NCBI RefSeq assembly: GCF_900176035.1
Contig: NZ_FWWT01000017.1
Location: 1-64,000, forward strand
Length of the DNA: 64,000 bases
Reading direction: 5' to 3'
From: Desulfonispora thiosulfatigenes DSM 11270
GTDB lineage: Bacteria > Bacillota > Peptococcia > Peptococcales > Desulfonisporaceae
Below, one piece after another: positions 33,522 to 41,004 of this stretch; within the stretch, counting starts at the first letter, position 1, and each line of letters starts with the position of its first letter. The notes under the pieces were generated by a model. That model was not told where the DNA came from and did no database searches. It saw only the letters and a program-made list of their open reading frames with translations. The translations under genes were made by a program, and so were the position numbers.

Positions 33522-33549
33522 TTGACAAGACCAGTAAAGATGTTATAAT
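33522..33549 (+). promoter_or_regulatory. aroK promoter
   Basis: Consensus TTGACA and TATAAT with a 16-bp spacer, 14 bp after the asr terminator. Confidence 0.8.
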
Positions 33550-33611
33550 TGCAAGAAAATTACAATTTACTATTATTCAATTTAAAAGTAACTTTATGGA
33601 GGATGGTTAGG

Positions 33612-34121
33612 ATGGAGAAAGAAAGCAAAAATATTGTGTTAATTGGTATGCCAGGATGTGGAAAAACAAGTATAGGAAAAAACTTAGCAGAACAGTTAAA
33701 GATGAATTTCATAGATGTAGATGAATATATTGAACAAAAAATGCAAATAAGTATTCCAGAAATATTTAAACAAGGTGAAGAACATTTTAGAAAAATTGAA
33801 ACTAGGTGTATAGAAGAACTAAGCAAATTATCATCTACTATTATTTCTACAGGTGGCGGAGTAGTTAAATCACCTTTAAATATCGAGTTTTTAAAGGAAA
33901 ATGGAATAATTATTTTTATTAATAGACCGTTAGAAAATATTGTAAATGATATTGATATTGGTGTTCGTCCTCTTTTAGCAGATGGTAAAGAAAAAATATT
34001 TAAGCTCTATCAAGATAGAATCGGGCTTTATAATAAATATAAGGATTATGAAATAATTAATGATAGTTCTCTAGAAAATGTGATGGAAAAAATGAGTGAA
34101 ATTTCTCAAAAAATTTCTTGA
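33612..34121 (+). CDS. aroK: Shikimate kinase
   Basis: ATP-dependent phosphorylation of shikimate, fifth step of the chorismate pathway; 169 residues, normal length. Walker A GMPGCGKTSIG, substrate-binding FIDVDEYIE, FRKIETRCIEEL and the STGGGVV motif are present. The start is ATG 33612, 9 nt after GGAGG; two upstream in-frame codons are less suitable. Its stop codon overlaps the -35 box of the trp promoter, so aroK and trp are adjacent but have separate promoters. Confidence 0.9.
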   Translation: MEKESKNIVLIGMPGCGKTSIGKNLAEQLKMNFIDVDEYIEQKMQISIPEIFKQGEEHFRKIETRCIEELSKLSSTIISTGGGVVKSPLNIEFLKENGIIIFINRPLENIVNDIDIGVRPLLADGKEKIFKLYQDRIGLYNKYKDYEIINDSSLENVMEKMSEISQKIS

Positions 34122-34147
34122 CAAAAGGATATTAAGAATAATATAAT
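34118..34147 (+). promoter_or_regulatory. trp operon promoter
   Basis: TTGACA and TATAAT with an 18-bp spacer. The -35 box overlaps the aroK stop codon. Confidence 0.8.
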
Positions 34148-34410
34148 GATAAAAATTAATAATAATAAAAGCAATGCGTAGGGAGAGTAGCTATTTTCGA
34201 AACATTTCAGAGAGCCGGTGGTGGTGGGAGTCCGGTATGATTAGAGATAGTGAATGGGCCTACAAGCTGTAGACTGAAATTACTTTTAGTAAGAGTAGGA
34301 AACTACCGGAGCACTTCACCGTTAAAAGAAGTCGGGTATCGGATTGAATTAAAATAATCTCGTACTTTGTCTTATAGGCTTTTTGCTTATAAAGGTGGTA
34401 TAGCGAAATT

Positions 34411-34445
34411 AACCTTTCGTCCTTTATGGATGGAAGGTTTTTATT
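34411..34445 (+). terminator. First T-box terminator
   Basis: The 12-bp stem AACCTTTCGTCC/GGATGGAAGGTT (with wobble pairs) is followed by a T-rich run. Its 5' arm can instead pair with the first T-box sequence. Confidence 0.8.
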
Positions 34446-34503
34446 TTATTCATTTCCCGTACTTAAAGAGAGGGGCTTTTGCCCAATTAAGGTGGTACCG
34501 CGA

Positions 34504-34540
34504 AAACTTTTCGTCCTTTTGGATGGAAAGTTTTTTTTTA
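34504..34540 (+). terminator. Second T-box terminator
   Basis: The stem AACTTTTCGTCC/GGATGGAAAGTT is followed by nine T residues. It sits directly before the trpE ribosome binding site. Confidence 0.88.
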
Positions 34541-34573: not shown

Positions 34574-36052
34574 ATGTTTCCAGAGACTAAGGAAGATTTT
34601 TTAACGCTTACTAAGAAAGCTAATTTAATTCCTATTTATAAGGAATATTCATCTGCACTTGAAACGCCCTTAGCTGTTTTTTTAAAGCTAAAAAGTAATA
34701 AACATGCGTTTTTATTAGAAAGCGTAGAAAGAGGAGTCCAAATGGGGAGGTTTTCTTTTGTTGGATTTGAGCCTAGGGCAATATTTAAGGCTAAAGATAA
34801 AGAAATAAGTATAGAGGAACAAGGAGAAATCACCAATTACACTTGCCTTGACCCTTTAAAAGAAATAGAGGGAATTTTCCAAAAGTATATTGCTTTATCT
34901 GTACCAGAACTACCTATGTTTTCAGGGGGAGCGGTAGGTTACTTTGGTTATGACATGATTAGAAACTGGGAGGATATACCTAAGGGTAATATTAAGGATA
35001 CTGATTATCCTGATTGTTTATTAATGTTTACCGATCAGCTAATTATCTTTGATCATGTAAAACAAACGATGAAAATTGTAATCAATGTCCATGTGGGGAA
35101 TAATCCTGAGGAGCAATATCTAGAGGCTCTACAAAAGATAGAAATAATTAAGGCAAAATTAGATAGACCTATTCCTAAAGATAAATTACAGAAAAATAAA
35201 CAAAAGGAAGAGTTAGATTTTCAGGAAAATACTACCCCAGAGGAATTTAAGGAAAAGGTAAAAAAGGCCAAGAAATATATTGAAAGCGGTGATATTTTTC
35301 AAGTTGTAATATCTCGCAAGATAGATTTTGAATTAAAGACAGATCCATTATTAATCTATCAAAGTTTAAGATCCTTAAATCCTTCTCCTTATATGTTTTA
35401 CTTAGACTTTGCTGATATTAAGCTAGTTGGTTCATCCCCAGAAATAATGGTCAAAGTAGAAAATAATAGGGCTGAACTAAGACCGATTGCGGGAACTAGA
35501 CCAAGAGGAAAAACTGCAGAAGAAGATAGTGTTCTTATAGAAGATTTATTAGCTGATGAAAAGGAAAAGGCAGAACATTTAATGCTTGTTGATTTAGGTC
35601 GAAATGATTTAGGAAGAGTTAGCCAGTATGGAACTGTAAAGGTAGAAGAATTTATGAAGGTAGAAAAATATTCGCATGTTTCTCATTTAGTATCTAAAGT
35701 TACAGGAAAGTTAAAAGAGGGTTCAAATTGTTTTGATGTACTAAGAGCAAGCTTTCCTGCTGGGACGGTTTCAGGTGCACCTAAAATAAGAGCTATGCAA
35801 ATTATTGATGAATTAGAAGGGGAGGCAAGAGGACCATACGCAGGAGCGGTAGGTTCTCTAGGTTATAACGGTAATCTGGATACTTGTATTACTATTCGGA
35901 CTTTAATGATTAATAAAAATAGAGCAACTATTCAGGCAGGAGCAGGAATTGTTGCTGATTCTAACCCAGTAAATGAATATCTAGAAACGTGTAACAAAAA
36001 GGGGGCAATTTTAAAAGCAATAGAAATTGCTACGAAGGGGGAAGAAGATTGA
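34574..36052 (+). CDS. trpE: Anthranilate synthase component I
   Basis: Converts chorismate and ammonia/glutamine nitrogen to anthranilate; 492 residues, normal length. The N-terminal Trp-feedback region includes LLESVERGVQMGRFSF; the catalytic part shows RPIAGTRPRG, EKAEHLMLVDLGRNDLGRV and SFPAGTVSGAPKIRAM. AAGGAGG precedes the ATG. Its stop overlaps the trpG start. Confidence 0.94.
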   Translation: MFPETKEDFLTLTKKANLIPIYKEYSSALETPLAVFLKLKSNKHAFLLESVERGVQMGRFSFVGFEPRAIFKAKDKEISIEEQGEITNYTCLDPLKEIEGIFQKYIALSVPELPMFSGGAVGYFGYDMIRNWEDIPKGNIKDTDYPDCLLMFTDQLIIFDHVKQTMKIVINVHVGNNPEEQYLEALQKIEIIKAKLDRPIPKDKLQKNKQKEELDFQENTTPEEFKEKVKKAKKYIESGDIFQVVISRKIDFELKTDPLLIYQSLRSLNPSPYMFYLDFADIKLVGSSPEIMVKVENNRAELRPIAGTRPRGKTAEEDSVLIEDLLADEKEKAEHLMLVDLGRNDLGRVSQYGTVKVEEFMKVEKYSHVSHLVSKVTGKLKEGSNCFDVLRASFPAGTVSGAPKIRAMQIIDELEGEARGPYAGAVGSLGYNGNLDTCITIRTLMINKNRATIQAGAGIVADSNPVNEYLETCNKKGAILKAIEIATKGEED

Positions 36053-36612
36053 TTTTAGTAATCGACAATTATGATTCGTTTGTATATAACTTAGTTCAAT
36101 ATTTAGGATCCTTAGGAGAAGAAATTAAGGTAGTGCGTAATAATAAAATTACACTTAGCGAGATAGAGAAACTTAATCCTCTGAAAATCGTGATTTCACC
36201 AGGACCTGGTAAACCAGAAAATGCAGGAATTAGTAAAGATGTAGTTAGTTATTTTTCGGGAAAGATTCCTATTTTAGGGGTATGTTTAGGTCATCAATGT
36301 ATTGGCGAAGTATTTGGAGCAAATATTTCTCAAGCAAAAAGTATTGTTCATGGAAAAACATCTATTATTACACATAGTGAAGGGGGAATCTTTAGGGGTA
36401 TCCCACCAGGGATATTAGTAACGCGGTATCATTCTTTAGTTATTTTAAAAGAAAGCATACCGAAAAGTTTAAGCATAACTGCTGTTAGTGAGGATGGAGA
36501 AATAATGGCAATCAAGCACAAGGATTACCCTACGTATGGAGTACAGTTTCACCCTGAATCCATTGCAAGTCAGTATGGAAAAGAAATATTAGAAAACTTT
36601 CTCAAAATATAA
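36049..36612 (+). CDS. trpG: Anthranilate synthase component II (glutamine amidotransferase)
   Basis: A 187-residue class I amidotransferase supplying ammonia to TrpE. The nucleophile is Cys in GVCLGHQCIGE, with His and Glu in VQFHPESI. It starts at TTG inside the trpE stop (TTGA overlap), i.e. translationally coupled. As the only copy in view it might also serve p-aminobenzoate synthesis. Confidence 0.93.
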   Translation: MILVIDNYDSFVYNLVQYLGSLGEEIKVVRNNKITLSEIEKLNPLKIVISPGPGKPENAGISKDVVSYFSGKIPILGVCLGHQCIGEVFGANISQAKSIVHGKTSIITHSEGGIFRGIPPGILVTRYHSLVILKESIPKSLSITAVSEDGEIMAIKHKDYPTYGVQFHPESIASQYGKEILENFLKI

Positions 36613-36643
36613 AGAGAAAAATTGAGAGGAGATGAGCTTAGTT

Positions 36644-37669
36644 ATGAAAGAGGCAATTAGTAGAGTAGTTAGAGGAGAAAATTTATCTATAGAAACGGCA
36701 ACGAGTGTTATGAAAACAATTATGGAGGGTAATGCTACCCCTGCACAAATTGGAAGCTTTTTAACAGCATTAAGAATAAAAGGAGAAACACCAGAAGAAA
36801 TAATTGGCTTTGCAAGAGTAATGAGAGAAAAAGCAATTTCTATTAAATCAACTCATCCTTTTTTAATCGATAGTGTGGGTACTGGAGGAGATGGAAGTGG
36901 AACTTTTAATATATCCACTACGGTATCTTTTGTAGTAGCAGGAGCAGGTCTAGCTGTAGCAAAACACGGAAATAGGTCAGTCTCTAGTAGATGTGGGAGT
37001 GCAGATGTATTAGAAGCTTTAGGAGTAAAGATTGATTTAAATAAAGAAGAAGTGGAAAGGGTTTTAAATAGCACAGGCTTAGGATTTATTTATGCTCCTA
37101 ATTTTCATAAAGCTATGAAACATGCAATAAATCCCCGTAAAGAAATAGGGATAAGAAGCATTTTTAACCTTTTAGGACCTTTAACTAACCCTGCCCAGAT
37201 TAAATATATGCTTTTAGGTGTATATGATCCTAATTTAACGGAAATTATTGCAGAGGTTTTAAGGGAACTAGGAATAGAAGGTGCGTACGTAGTTCATGGA
37301 GATAGTGGATTAGATGAAATATCAATAACAGGTCCTAGTAAAATTACACAGTTAAGTGAAGGAAAAATTATAAACTATGAAATTACACCTGAACAATTTG
37401 GTTTTGCACGGAGAAGTCTTGAAGAAATAAAAGGAGGTAATGCCGCTCTAAATGCGAGAATTACCCAAAAGGTTCTAAGAGGAGACAAGGGAGCTTTTAG
37501 AGATATTGTAGTCTTAAATAGTGCGGCTCTTTTTTGTACATCAAAATTAACCAAGGATTTATCAGAAGGGGTTCAGTTAGCTAAGGAAATTATTGATTCT
37601 GGTCTAGCCCAAAAAAAACTTAATGAATTAATAGAGGTTAGCAACAAAGTGGGAGGCGAGAGGTTATGA
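36644..37669 (+). CDS. trpD: Anthranilate phosphoribosyltransferase
   Basis: Transfers phosphoribosyl from PRPP to anthranilate; about 341 residues. DSVGTGGDGSGTFNIST is the PRPP/anthranilate site, followed by KHGNRSVSSRCGSADVLEALG. The start is uncertain: ATG 36632 lies directly on the GAGAGGAG site, so I prefer ATG 36644, 12 nt from it. It overlaps trpC by 4 nt (ATGA). Confidence 0.92.
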   Translation: MKEAISRVVRGENLSIETATSVMKTIMEGNATPAQIGSFLTALRIKGETPEEIIGFARVMREKAISIKSTHPFLIDSVGTGGDGSGTFNISTTVSFVVAGAGLAVAKHGNRSVSSRCGSADVLEALGVKIDLNKEEVERVLNSTGLGFIYAPNFHKAMKHAINPRKEIGIRSIFNLLGPLTNPAQIKYMLLGVYDPNLTEIIAEVLRELGIEGAYVVHGDSGLDEISITGPSKITQLSEGKIINYEITPEQFGFARRSLEEIKGGNAALNARITQKVLRGDKGAFRDIVVLNSAALFCTSKLTKDLSEGVQLAKEIIDSGLAQKKLNELIEVSNKVGGERL

Positions 37670-38391
37670 TCTTAGAAAAAATTGTGGATTTTAAAAAAGA
37701 AGAAATAAAGCAAAAAAAGAAAGTAAAAGGTACTTTTAAAGATGCCTTAAATAAACCTGGAATTAGTTTAATTGCAGAAGTTAAAAAGGCCTCTCCTTCT
37801 AAAGGTGTTTTAAGGGAAAACTTTAATCCGGTCCAAATCGCTAAAGATTATGAAAATGGGGGAGCAAGGGCAATTTCAGTTCTGACTGATGCTAAGTTTT
37901 TTGGGGGATGTAGTGAAGATTTAACACTAGTTAAAGCAAATGTAAATTTACCAGTCTTACGCAAGGATTTCATTATTGATCCTATACAAATTTACGAAGC
38001 CCTATCTTTAGGTGCAGATGCTATTCTTTTAATTGTGGCAATCTTAACTGAAAAGAAGTTAAAAGAGTATATGCAAATAGCAGCGGACTTAGGTTTAGAT
38101 GTTTTAGTAGAAGTACACAGTAGAGAAGAATTAGCAAAAGCTCTTGCTGTAGGAGCAAAAATTATAGGCGTTAATAATCGAGACTTAAGGAGCTTTCAGA
38201 CAGATATCAAAGTCACCTTAAATTTAGCCGAGTTTGTACCTAGTGATTGTATCTTAGTAAGTGAAAGTGGAATTTCTAGTAAAGATGATTTAAAAAGATT
38301 ACAAGAAGTAGGTGTAGATGCAGTTTTAGTGGGAGAATCTCTAGTAAAGGAAAAGGATATACAGGCAAAGATTAAGGATCTCTTGTCATGA
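37666..38391 (+). CDS. trpC: Indole-3-glycerol-phosphate synthase
   Basis: A 241-residue TIM-barrel enzyme closing the indole ring. Key segments: LIAEVKKASPSKGVL, FGGCSEDL, VLRKDFIIDPIQIYEA, IGVNNRDLRSF and SESGISS. ATGA overlaps with both trpD and trpF indicate coupled translation. Confidence 0.94.
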   Translation: MILEKIVDFKKEEIKQKKKVKGTFKDALNKPGISLIAEVKKASPSKGVLRENFNPVQIAKDYENGGARAISVLTDAKFFGGCSEDLTLVKANVNLPVLRKDFIIDPIQIYEALSLGADAILLIVAILTEKKLKEYMQIAADLGLDVLVEVHSREELAKALAVGAKIIGVNNRDLRSFQTDIKVTLNLAEFVPSDCILVSESGISSKDDLKRLQEVGVDAVLVGESLVKEKDIQAKIKDLLS

Positions 38392-39026
38392 CTTGGATAA
38401 AAATTTGCGGAATTACAAATATCCCTGATGCTAAACTAGCCTGTTCCTTAGGAGCAGATGCTTTAGGTTTTATTTTTGCCCCTAGTACAAGAAAAGTAAA
38501 TCCCAAAATTGCGCAGGAAATAATAAAAGATCTTCCTTTTGATGTAGAAAAAATTGGCGTATTTATGGATGAAGATATAAAGGTTGTTCAGGAAATTGCA
38601 GAATATTGTGGTTTAACGGGTCTCCAATTTCATGGTAAGGAATCACCGAAATATTGTAAGAATTTTGCTAAGTACAAAGTAATTAAATCTTTTCGGATTA
38701 AAGAAGAGCAAGATTTAGAAAAGACTAATGATTATTTAGAAAATGTTGACCTGATTTTACTTGATACCTATGTTCCAGCAGTTCCAGGAGGTACAGGAAA
38801 AACCTTTCCTTGGGAGATTGCTAGAAAGCAGGTCGGGGGAGGAGTTCCCGTAATTATTGCTGGGGGGATCAATGCTAGCAATGTAAATAAAGCCATTCGG
38901 GTAGCAAGTCCTTTTGGAATTGATATTGGAAGCGGAGTAGAAAGTGAGCCTGGAAAAAAGGATAAAGAAAAGTTAAGTAAGTTATTTAAGACTTTAAATT
39001 CTAAGGAGGAAATGAGATATGAATAG
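38388..39026 (+). CDS. trpF: Phosphoribosylanthranilate isomerase
   Basis: A 212-residue TIM barrel isomerising PRA to Cd[11 protein letters not shown] has the catalytic Cys; [29 protein letters not shown] (with the catalytic Asp) and [10 protein letters not shown] follow. It overlaps trpC by 4 nt and trpB by 8 nt. Confidence 0.93.
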
Positions 39027-40202
39027 ATTGGGATATTTTGGGGAGTTTGGAGGACAGTTTGTACCCGAGACCTTAATGCCTGCTTTAGAAGAACTAGAAT
39101 CAGCTTATAATAAATATAAAAATGATGATGAATTTACAAAAGAGTACAACTATTATTTAAAAGATTATGTAGGCAGAGCTAATCCTTTATATTATGCACA
39201 GCAGTTAACTAAATATTTAAAGGGAGCAAAAGTTTATTTAAAAAGAGAAGATTTAAATCATACCGGATCTCATAAAATTAATAATGCCTTAGGTCAAGCC
39301 CTTTTAGCTAAAAGAATGGGGAAAAAAGAGTTATAGCTGAAACTGGTGCAGGTCAACATGGTGTTGCTACTGCTACAGCTGCAGCATTACTAGGACTTGA
39401 ATGTGAAATATTTATGGGAAGGGAAGATGTACGTCGTCAAAGTCTTAATGTATTTCGGATGGAGCTTTTAGGAGCAAAGGTTAGAAGCGTAGAATCAGGA
39501 ACAAAAACACTTAAAGATGCAACTAATGAAGCTTTACGTAACTGGGTAGCAACTGTAGAAAATACTCATTATATAATTGGCTCAGTCGTAGGACCACACC
39601 CTTATCCTTTGATGGTTAGAGATTTTCAAAGTATTATTGGAAAGGAAGTAAAAGAACAAATTCTAAAGCTAGAAGGAAAATTACCAGATTTATTAATTGC
39701 CCCTGTAGGTGGGGGAAGTAACTCCATGGGTCTATTTCACCCTTTTATAGATTCAAAGGTAGAGATGATTGGGGTTGAAGCGTACGGAAAAGGTATTGAT
39801 ACAGATCAGCATTCTGCATCTTTAACCCTAGGAACTAAAGGAGTATTACATGGAGCTTTAAGTTATTTACTACAAAATGAAGATGGTCAAATCTTACCAG
39901 CTCATTCTATTTCAGCAGGTTTAGATTATCCAGGAGTAGGACCTGAGCATAGTTATTTAAAAGATAGTAAAAGGGTAAAGTATGTAGGAATTACAGATAA
40001 AGAGGCATTAGAAGCCTTTAAATTATTATCGAGAGTAGAAGGAATAATTCCCGCGCTTGAAAGTGCTCATGCCATTGCCCATGCGTGTAAAATAGTTCCA
40101 CAGTTAAGTAAGGATAAAACTATTGTAATTTGTCTTTCTGGTCGGGGCGATAAAGATGTAGCAGAAGTTTGTGATTTATTAAGGGGTGAAGTAAATGAAT
40201 AG
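39019..40202 (+). pseudogene. trpB: Tryptophan synthase beta chain, frame-disrupted
   Basis: PLP enzyme joining indole and serine. The first frame (39019-39336) ends early after [19 protein letters not shown], which holds the PLP-binding Lys. The second frame (from about 39330) continues [17 protein letters not shown] and runs to 40202. The break is at an A6 run (39322-39327); one more A would restore a normal product of 394 residues. All other motifs ([15 protein letters not shown]) are intact and the rest of the operon is undamaged. A missing base in the assembly, or a very recent mutation, is therefore more likely than old decay. The local codons do not form a good ribosomal slip site. Confidence 0.85.
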
Positions 40203-41004
40203 AATTGATCAAACTTTTAAAAAGCTAGCTAGTCAGAATAAGAAAGCATTAATTCCATATGTTAGCGTAGGAGACCCTAATTTAGAATTTACAGAAAGGT
40301 TAGTTTTAAAGCTAGCAGAAGAGGGAGCAGATTTAATTGAATTAGGTATTCCTTATTCAGATCCTGTAGCAGATGGACCAACTATTCAAAAGGCATCAGC
40401 CAGGGCACTATCTGGAGGGGTAACACTTGAAAAAATATTTTCTTTAATTTTACGCTTAAGAGAAAAAACGCAAATACCATTAATAATCATGAGTTACTTT
40501 AATCCCATCTATGTAAAAGGTATGGAAAACTTTACTAAAAAAGCATCTGCTAGCGGAATAGATGGAATTATTATTCCAGATTTACCAGTTGAAGAAGCGG
40601 GTATTTTTAATGAATTGGCCAAAGAACAGGGAATATATTTAATAAATTTAATAGCTCCGACTAGCAATAAAAGAATTAAGAAAATTGTCCAAAATTCTAA
40701 AGGATTTATTTATTGTGTAAGTAGCTTAGGTGTAACAGGAGCAAGGGCAGGAAACTTTAATAATTTAGAAACGTTTTTACAAAATATCCGAGCGGAAACT
40801 GATTTACCCTTAGCAGTAGGTTTTGGAGTATCTACTAGCGAGCAGGCTAAAAATATAGCTCAGTATGCAGAGGGTGTTATTATAGGAAGTGCTTTGATTA
40901 ATCAGATTGAAAAAAATATAGATCAAAACTATTTTAATCAAGAAAAAGCATTAAGTGATGCTTCTAGTTTTATTAGGGATTTAAAAGGAGCCATGAGTAT
41001 TTAA
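40195..41004 (+). CDS. trpA: Tryptophan synthase alpha chain
   Basis: A 269-residue TIM barrel releasing indole from indole-glycerol phosphate. [19 protein letters not shown] contains the catalytic Asp region, [12 protein letters not shown] and [11 protein letters not shown] follow. It overlaps the end of trpB by 8 nt and ends the operon. Confidence 0.94.

Follow-up and report, generated by a model that had tools for sequence, protein, structure and literature searches.

The leader upstream of trpE (34165-34540, + strand) in the window, a 64,000-nucleotide stretch of the Desulfonispora thiosulfatigenes DSM 11270 genome, is a Trp (UGG) T-box in which one stem I is followed by two antiterminator/terminator modules (Table 1). 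Read alongside related leaders, its sequence suggests that the modules probably act as two gates in series that take turns on one docking strand, with the same tRNA tested twice. The Rfam T-box model RF00230 matches 34165-34521 (105.4 bits, gathering cutoff 93, E 1.4e-23); the alignment contains a single stem I and takes module 2 as the antiterminator, module 1 being passed over as an unmodelled insert. The whole genome holds seven T-box matches, one of them at this leader. No second stem I fits between the modules, as the 85 nt that separate the T-box cores are filled by terminator 1, CGTACTT and stem III, and with one stem I the leader is not a tandem pair of complete T-boxes, which has two stem I aptamers in series. 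UGGN, the A1 and A2 helices and a terminator are nevertheless present in both modules, and two terminators were found in the leader, against 0.3 expected in shuffles. The original prediction had proposed one Trp stem I feeding two modules and a covariance-model search to count the stem I elements; the arrangement was confirmed, with a TGG specifier and two predicted terminators.

The specifier agrees both with the trp pathway downstream and with the tRNA-Trp (CCA) of the genome. The two tRNA-Trp genes, both with the CCA anticodon, have the 3' end ...CCCCT-GCCA with G as discriminator, and the UGGU of either module can pair with this GCCA, one of the pairs being G-U. We also note that a tRNA-Asn/tRNA-Trp gene pair occurs in two copies near contig ends of this genome (L240 and L241, on contigs C19 and C21 of G000), and that the -35 box of the trp promoter (34118-34123) overlaps the TGA stop (34119-34121) of a shikimate-kinase-like ORF at 33549-34121. 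Within the operon, trpB (39019-40202) is divided between ORFs 39019-39336 and 39414-40202, with the reading frame breaking at GGGGAAAAAAGAG, around 39320-39332, where a run of six A is followed by G; the split may reflect a one-base loss, a sequencing error or a -1 slippery site.

Table 1. Features of the trp leader and its operon in the window, with predicted free energies where calculated
Feature	Position	Strand	Basis
Promoter TTGACA-18-TATAAT, sigma-70-type	34118..34147	+	12/12 consensus positions
Single T-box stem I, AG bulge at 34209-34214	34165..34268	+	Rfam alignment
Specifier codon TGG (Trp)	34255..34257	+	Rfam alignment column; tRNA-Trp CCA in genome
Putative stem IIA/IIB pseudoknot with F-box (CGG/CCG; ACTTC/GAAGT)	34307..34332	+	sequence, analogy with known T-boxes
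Shared 5' strand GGGTATCGGATT, single copy	34334..34345	+	pairing and covariation with both 3' copies in relatives
3' strand copy 1, AATCTCGTACTT, holds first CGTACTT	34356..34367	+	pairing in relatives
Module 1 hairpin TTATAGGC-TTTTT-GCTTATAA in stem III position, overlapping the A1 5' strand	34372..34392	+	fold -6.7 kcal/mol
Antiterminator 1: A1 AUAAAGG/CCUUUAU, bulge UGGU-AUA (without ACC), A2 GCGAAA/UUUCGU	34389..34427	+	sequence; -8.0 kcal/mol
T-box core 1	34394-34405	+	
Terminator 1: 12 bp stem 34411-34439, then T tract	34411..34449	+	-16.6 kcal/mol; predicted end ~34440
3' strand copy 2, TTTCCCGTACTT, holds second CGTACTT	34453..34464	+	pairs with 34334-34345, -8.0 kcal/mol
Module 2 purine string AAAGAGAG, stem III GGGC/GCCC, AA	34465..34486	+	sequence; Rfam alignment
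Antiterminator 2, canonical bulge UGGU-ACC (then GCG)	34487..34520	+	Rfam alignment; secondary structure alone -3.7 kcal/mol
T-box core 2	34491-34502	+	
Terminator 2: 15 bp stem 34502-34535, then T tract	34502..34540	+	-17.4 kcal/mol; predicted end ~34535
Regulated operon trpEGDCFBA, trpE start 34574	34574..41004	+	ORFs and their sequences

The two modules are alike in arrangement and differ in their discriminators. The contrast between TATAGCG in the first T-box and TACCGCG in the second, noticed at the outset, is as described. The claim that both modules have the same layout stands for the repeated arrangement and fails at 34465-34486, since the series of purine string, stem III and AA is found in module 2 only; neither the purine string nor the AA before A1 exists in module 1, where another hairpin takes the stem III position. 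Module 1 thus lacks the canonical discriminator, that is, UGGN-ACC combined with purine string, stem III and AA. With A1 (7 bp) and A2 both intact, it is not obviously dead. The suggestion that the modules might differ in tRNA binding finds no support in the UGGN pairing, which is UGGU twice, and the idea that they read two different tRNAs was rejected on the same ground; what differs is the ACC half of the bulge and stem III.

The CGTACTT sequence that had been noticed before each module (34361-34367 and 34458-34464) belongs to a 3' strand that forms a hairpin with GGGTATCGGATT, and this 3' strand occurs twice, its 5' strand once. The tandem duplication originally suggested is an incomplete one: the 5' strand of the helix remains single and a 3' strand starts each unit. 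Among 43 relatives, GGUAUCGG in the 5' strand goes with GUAC in both copies (13 cases) and GAUAUCGG with GUAU (30 cases), with no exception, so that an exchange between A-U and G-C in the 5' strand is matched by both 3' copies. The same rule holds in further leaders fetched by DNA similarity, not by pattern, with one G-U (L211), and one leader (L220) has the G-C form within an otherwise A-U family. In 36 distinct leaders of the window's type, 96.1% of the cells of copy 2 and 91.7% of those of copy 1 pair with the single 5' strand, compared with at most 51% and 59%, respectively, in slid controls, and none of 500 shuffles reached the covariation score of either copy. Strong co-variation is confined to one column of this helix, and the independent events behind it are few: for the A-U/G-C exchange, trees built from part of these leaders require a minimum of two changes. 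In three leaders (L218, L226 and L235) the stretch from module 1 to copy 2 is much longer, in one case through an apparently inserted sequence, yet copy 2 is retained and still pairs.

In 36 of the 43 leaders the duplex with the 5' strand is stronger for copy 2 than for copy 1 (means -12.9 and -10.8 kcal/mol). The window itself does not follow this trend: copy 2, at -8.0 kcal/mol, is about equal to and not stronger than copy 1, at -8.3 to -8.6 kcal/mol; copy 1 also lies nearby and is the first to form, which counts against strand exchange in this leader. The window's family consists of a single genome, and its own leader therefore has no close relatives for comparison.

A second form of strand sharing is seen in trp leaders of the Thermoanaerobacter type, in which module 1 has no stem III and module 2 lacks a separate 5' strand for its stem III. 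Here the strand that follows the module 1 purine string shows complementarity to the one that immediately precedes the module 2 AA, the 3' strand of stem III (as in GUUUUGUACUUA with UAAGUAUAAAAC, or GUCCUGUGUUA with UAAUACAGGAC), and such a pairing would enclose module 1 and its terminator in the loop of the stem III of module 2. Across ten distinct rows, one of which (L187) was aligned with a one-base shift picked by eye, 94.2% of cells are paired, two-sided changes occur at six pairs, and there are 19 compensatory cells compared with 7.1 in shuffles; the score was 0.589, against 0.345 for shuffled and at most 0.204 for slid sequences, in which pairing reached at most 53%. In several trp leaders (L030, L058, L071 and L084) the shared helix extends into A1 of module 1, which would make the two states mutually exclusive. 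When the comparison was anchored at the stem III position and shuffles were used as the control, 26 of 105 non-redundant leaders had p<0.05, where ~5 were expected. The excess of unanchored complementarity between the module flanks looked significant but was equalled by a reversed-sequence control and was discarded as an effect of base composition, a swap test is partly open to the same weakness and is not relied on, and a global duplex-energy test gave values near chance.

The layout is not unique to the window. A scan of 84,980 species genomes for a T-box followed by a second one within about 51-116 nt, with ACC forced in the last module, returned at least 119 leaders of this shape, and among the matches listed the downstream genes include trpE, trpF, trpB, trpD, serC, serA, a DAHP synthase (aroF-like), lysA-like and ilvD-like genes and an NSS-type transporter, identities that were judged from translated sequences without a family search. 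A symmetric, unbiased two-sided pattern found the layout in 18 of 398 genomes of the phylum, and it is present in 34 of 63 genomes of one order (that of G408). It is also present in all of the 20 genomes with Thermoanaerobacter-like trp leaders, collected by DNA similarity with no T-box pattern. From its recurrence in at least 119 leaders, across the phylum and within one order, we conclude that the layout is established and retained by selection. Longer series also exist: six Bacillales leaders (L016, L067, L077, L079, L110 and L116) carry three modules on one stem I, and two more among the matches listed (L111 and L123, also Bacillales) carry four, all with ACC intact and mostly before an NSS-type transporter. 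Some relatives of the window's genome have wider T-box pairs, spaced ~120-135 nt and outside the spacing range of the scan (G025 C60 286-453; G037 C1 3670237-3670402; G032 C77 10016-10171).

Because the scan of the genome collection required ACC in the last module, the asymmetry between modules was re-tested with the symmetric pattern. In that sample a non-ACC bulge occurs in 8 of 19 first modules and in 1 of 19 second modules, never in module 2 alone. Loss of the last C from the module 1 bulge (ATA, ACA, AAA or ATT) tends to go with loss of the AA before A1, which is missing in 12 of 16 such leaders compared with 17 of 110 others, a count that ignores relatedness; within the window's type the leader tree gives at least four origins for the loss of the last C. 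Among ~150 ordinary T-boxes of relatives, AAC or ATC occurs occasionally and ATA, ACA and AAA do not occur. In the 20 Thermoanaerobacter-like genomes, module 1 has UGGC, which was not a search criterion, in every case and ACC in none, and module 2 has ACC in all 20. The ACC half of the bulge and the purine string of stem III jointly stabilize the discriminator (PMC7583486), which makes their joint loss coherent. A general weakening of module 1 was too broad a statement and was narrowed: AAC is also seen in ordinary single Ser T-boxes, and Bacillales transporter leaders keep ACC in all of their two to four modules, which indicates that a weakened module 1 is not required. One single T-box in the window's own genome (L004, contig C14 of G000) has the bulge UGGC-AAC and lies before an aminotransferase-like gene of serine metabolism.

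These features can be combined into a mechanism. Stem I together with stem II would hold tRNA-Trp, with two expression platforms in series downstream, and polymerase would reach trpE only past both terminators; when tRNA-Trp is charged, leak-through would be multiplied down. With two intact predicted terminators behind one sensor, lower basal readthrough is to be expected. Serial gating is likely on this evidence, and the sequential gates first proposed for this leader agree both with its anatomy and with the recurrence of the layout across many lineages. Module 1, the first to form, would test the acceptor end of the tRNA via UGGU. Once terminator 1 has been passed, the second CCCGUAC copy would be made and could replace copy 1 on the single 5' strand GGGUAUCGGAUU, and module 1 would then lie inside the loop of the new helix, while module 2 would become accessible to the same tRNA, which could be tested again.

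The shared strand is what suggests that the platforms are used in turn, and the hand-off may occur by strand exchange. From the geometry of that strand and the stability of the locked complex (PMC5951919) we infer that the acceptor end of the tRNA may be transferred; termination at both sites, the order in which the steps occur and the consequences for the response are likewise predicted. Release of a locked tRNA from a T-box is very slow (koff 2.4e-4 per s; PMC5951919), and a first gate that locked fully would therefore hinder the second. The loss of ACC and of stem III/AA from module 1 could give a less lasting grip and an easier transfer. More tentatively, and with less confidence than we attach to the two serial gates, it is possible that such leaders are strand-exchange proofreading riboswitches, in which one aptamer serves several mutually exclusive platforms and the first checkpoint is deliberately weak. 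The 3' strand copy of each later module would then displace the earlier module from the shared 5' strand, and a single tRNA would be handed on, with two checks of its charging.

Three other accounts were weighed against two gates sharing a docking strand. Two serial gates might operate independently and without strand exchange, each module folding separately and being served in turn by tRNA that is held by stem I or newly bound, the second CGTACTT being a mere part of the duplicated unit. This would explain the lower leak with fewer assumptions, and it is consistent with the stem III that module 2 possesses in the window's type and with copies as near to identical as duplication would leave them. 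We nevertheless consider it unlikely, although it is the strongest of the alternatives: copy 2 lacks a separate complementary 5' strand that changes along with GUAC/GUAU and instead follows the single upstream strand, with which it mostly pairs better than copy 1 does (the 36 of 43 leaders above), and module 2 of the Thermoanaerobacter type lacks its own 5' strand of stem III.

Somewhat more doubtful is the possibility that module 1 is a degenerate, tRNA-independent attenuator that imposes a fixed share of termination and leaves the tRNA response to module 2. That module 1 has neither ACC nor the purine string of stem III, both needed for a stable discriminator (PMC7583486), would fit this account, as would the loss of part of antiterminator helix A2 in two relatives (L196 and L197). 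However, a fixed terminator has no need of UGGN, yet in the window UGGN, A1 (7 bp) and A2 of module 1 are intact (-8.0 kcal/mol) and UGGC persists in 20 of 20 trp leaders that were collected with no such requirement. That the extra module is a neutral or recent duplication without function seems very improbable; repeats at such spacing can come from tandem duplication, but the layout is kept in 34 of 63 genomes of an order and 20 of 20 of a family, with flanks that have diverged and pairing that has been maintained.

T-boxes with duplicated terminator-antiterminator elements were reportedly described by Vitreschak et al. in 2008. On its sequence the window leader belongs to this class, which likewise has one stem I and repeated antiterminator/terminator modules. 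It shares with the canonical transcriptional T-box (RF00230) stem I, the TGG specifier, IIA/B, the stem III and UGGN-ACC bulge of module 2 and the terminator, and differs from it by the extra antiterminator/terminator between the IIA/B region and the canonical discriminator. Tandem trp-operon T-boxes (PMC12452182) resemble it in that T-boxes control the trp operon of a Bacillota-type organism through two successive terminators, but they consist of two complete units with an aptamer each, whereas the window leader has only one stem I. In recent surveys, tandem riboswitches fall into two kinds, tandem complete units and adjacent aptamers (PMC12452182, PMC9481103), and the categories of the 2025 survey of contiguous riboswitches include no class with one aptamer and several platforms (PMC12452182). 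We found no description of the shared-strand organization or of the stripped module 1 in the literature searched, beyond whose reach the key earlier papers lie.

One aptamer with several mutually exclusive platforms would constitute a third arrangement, whose mechanism is clear and open to test. It is relevant to the question of how a T-box could be read repeatedly when it locks its tRNA so tightly. It may also separate the parts of the discriminator, in that UGGN would be needed for the first test and ACC and stem III would be dispensable.
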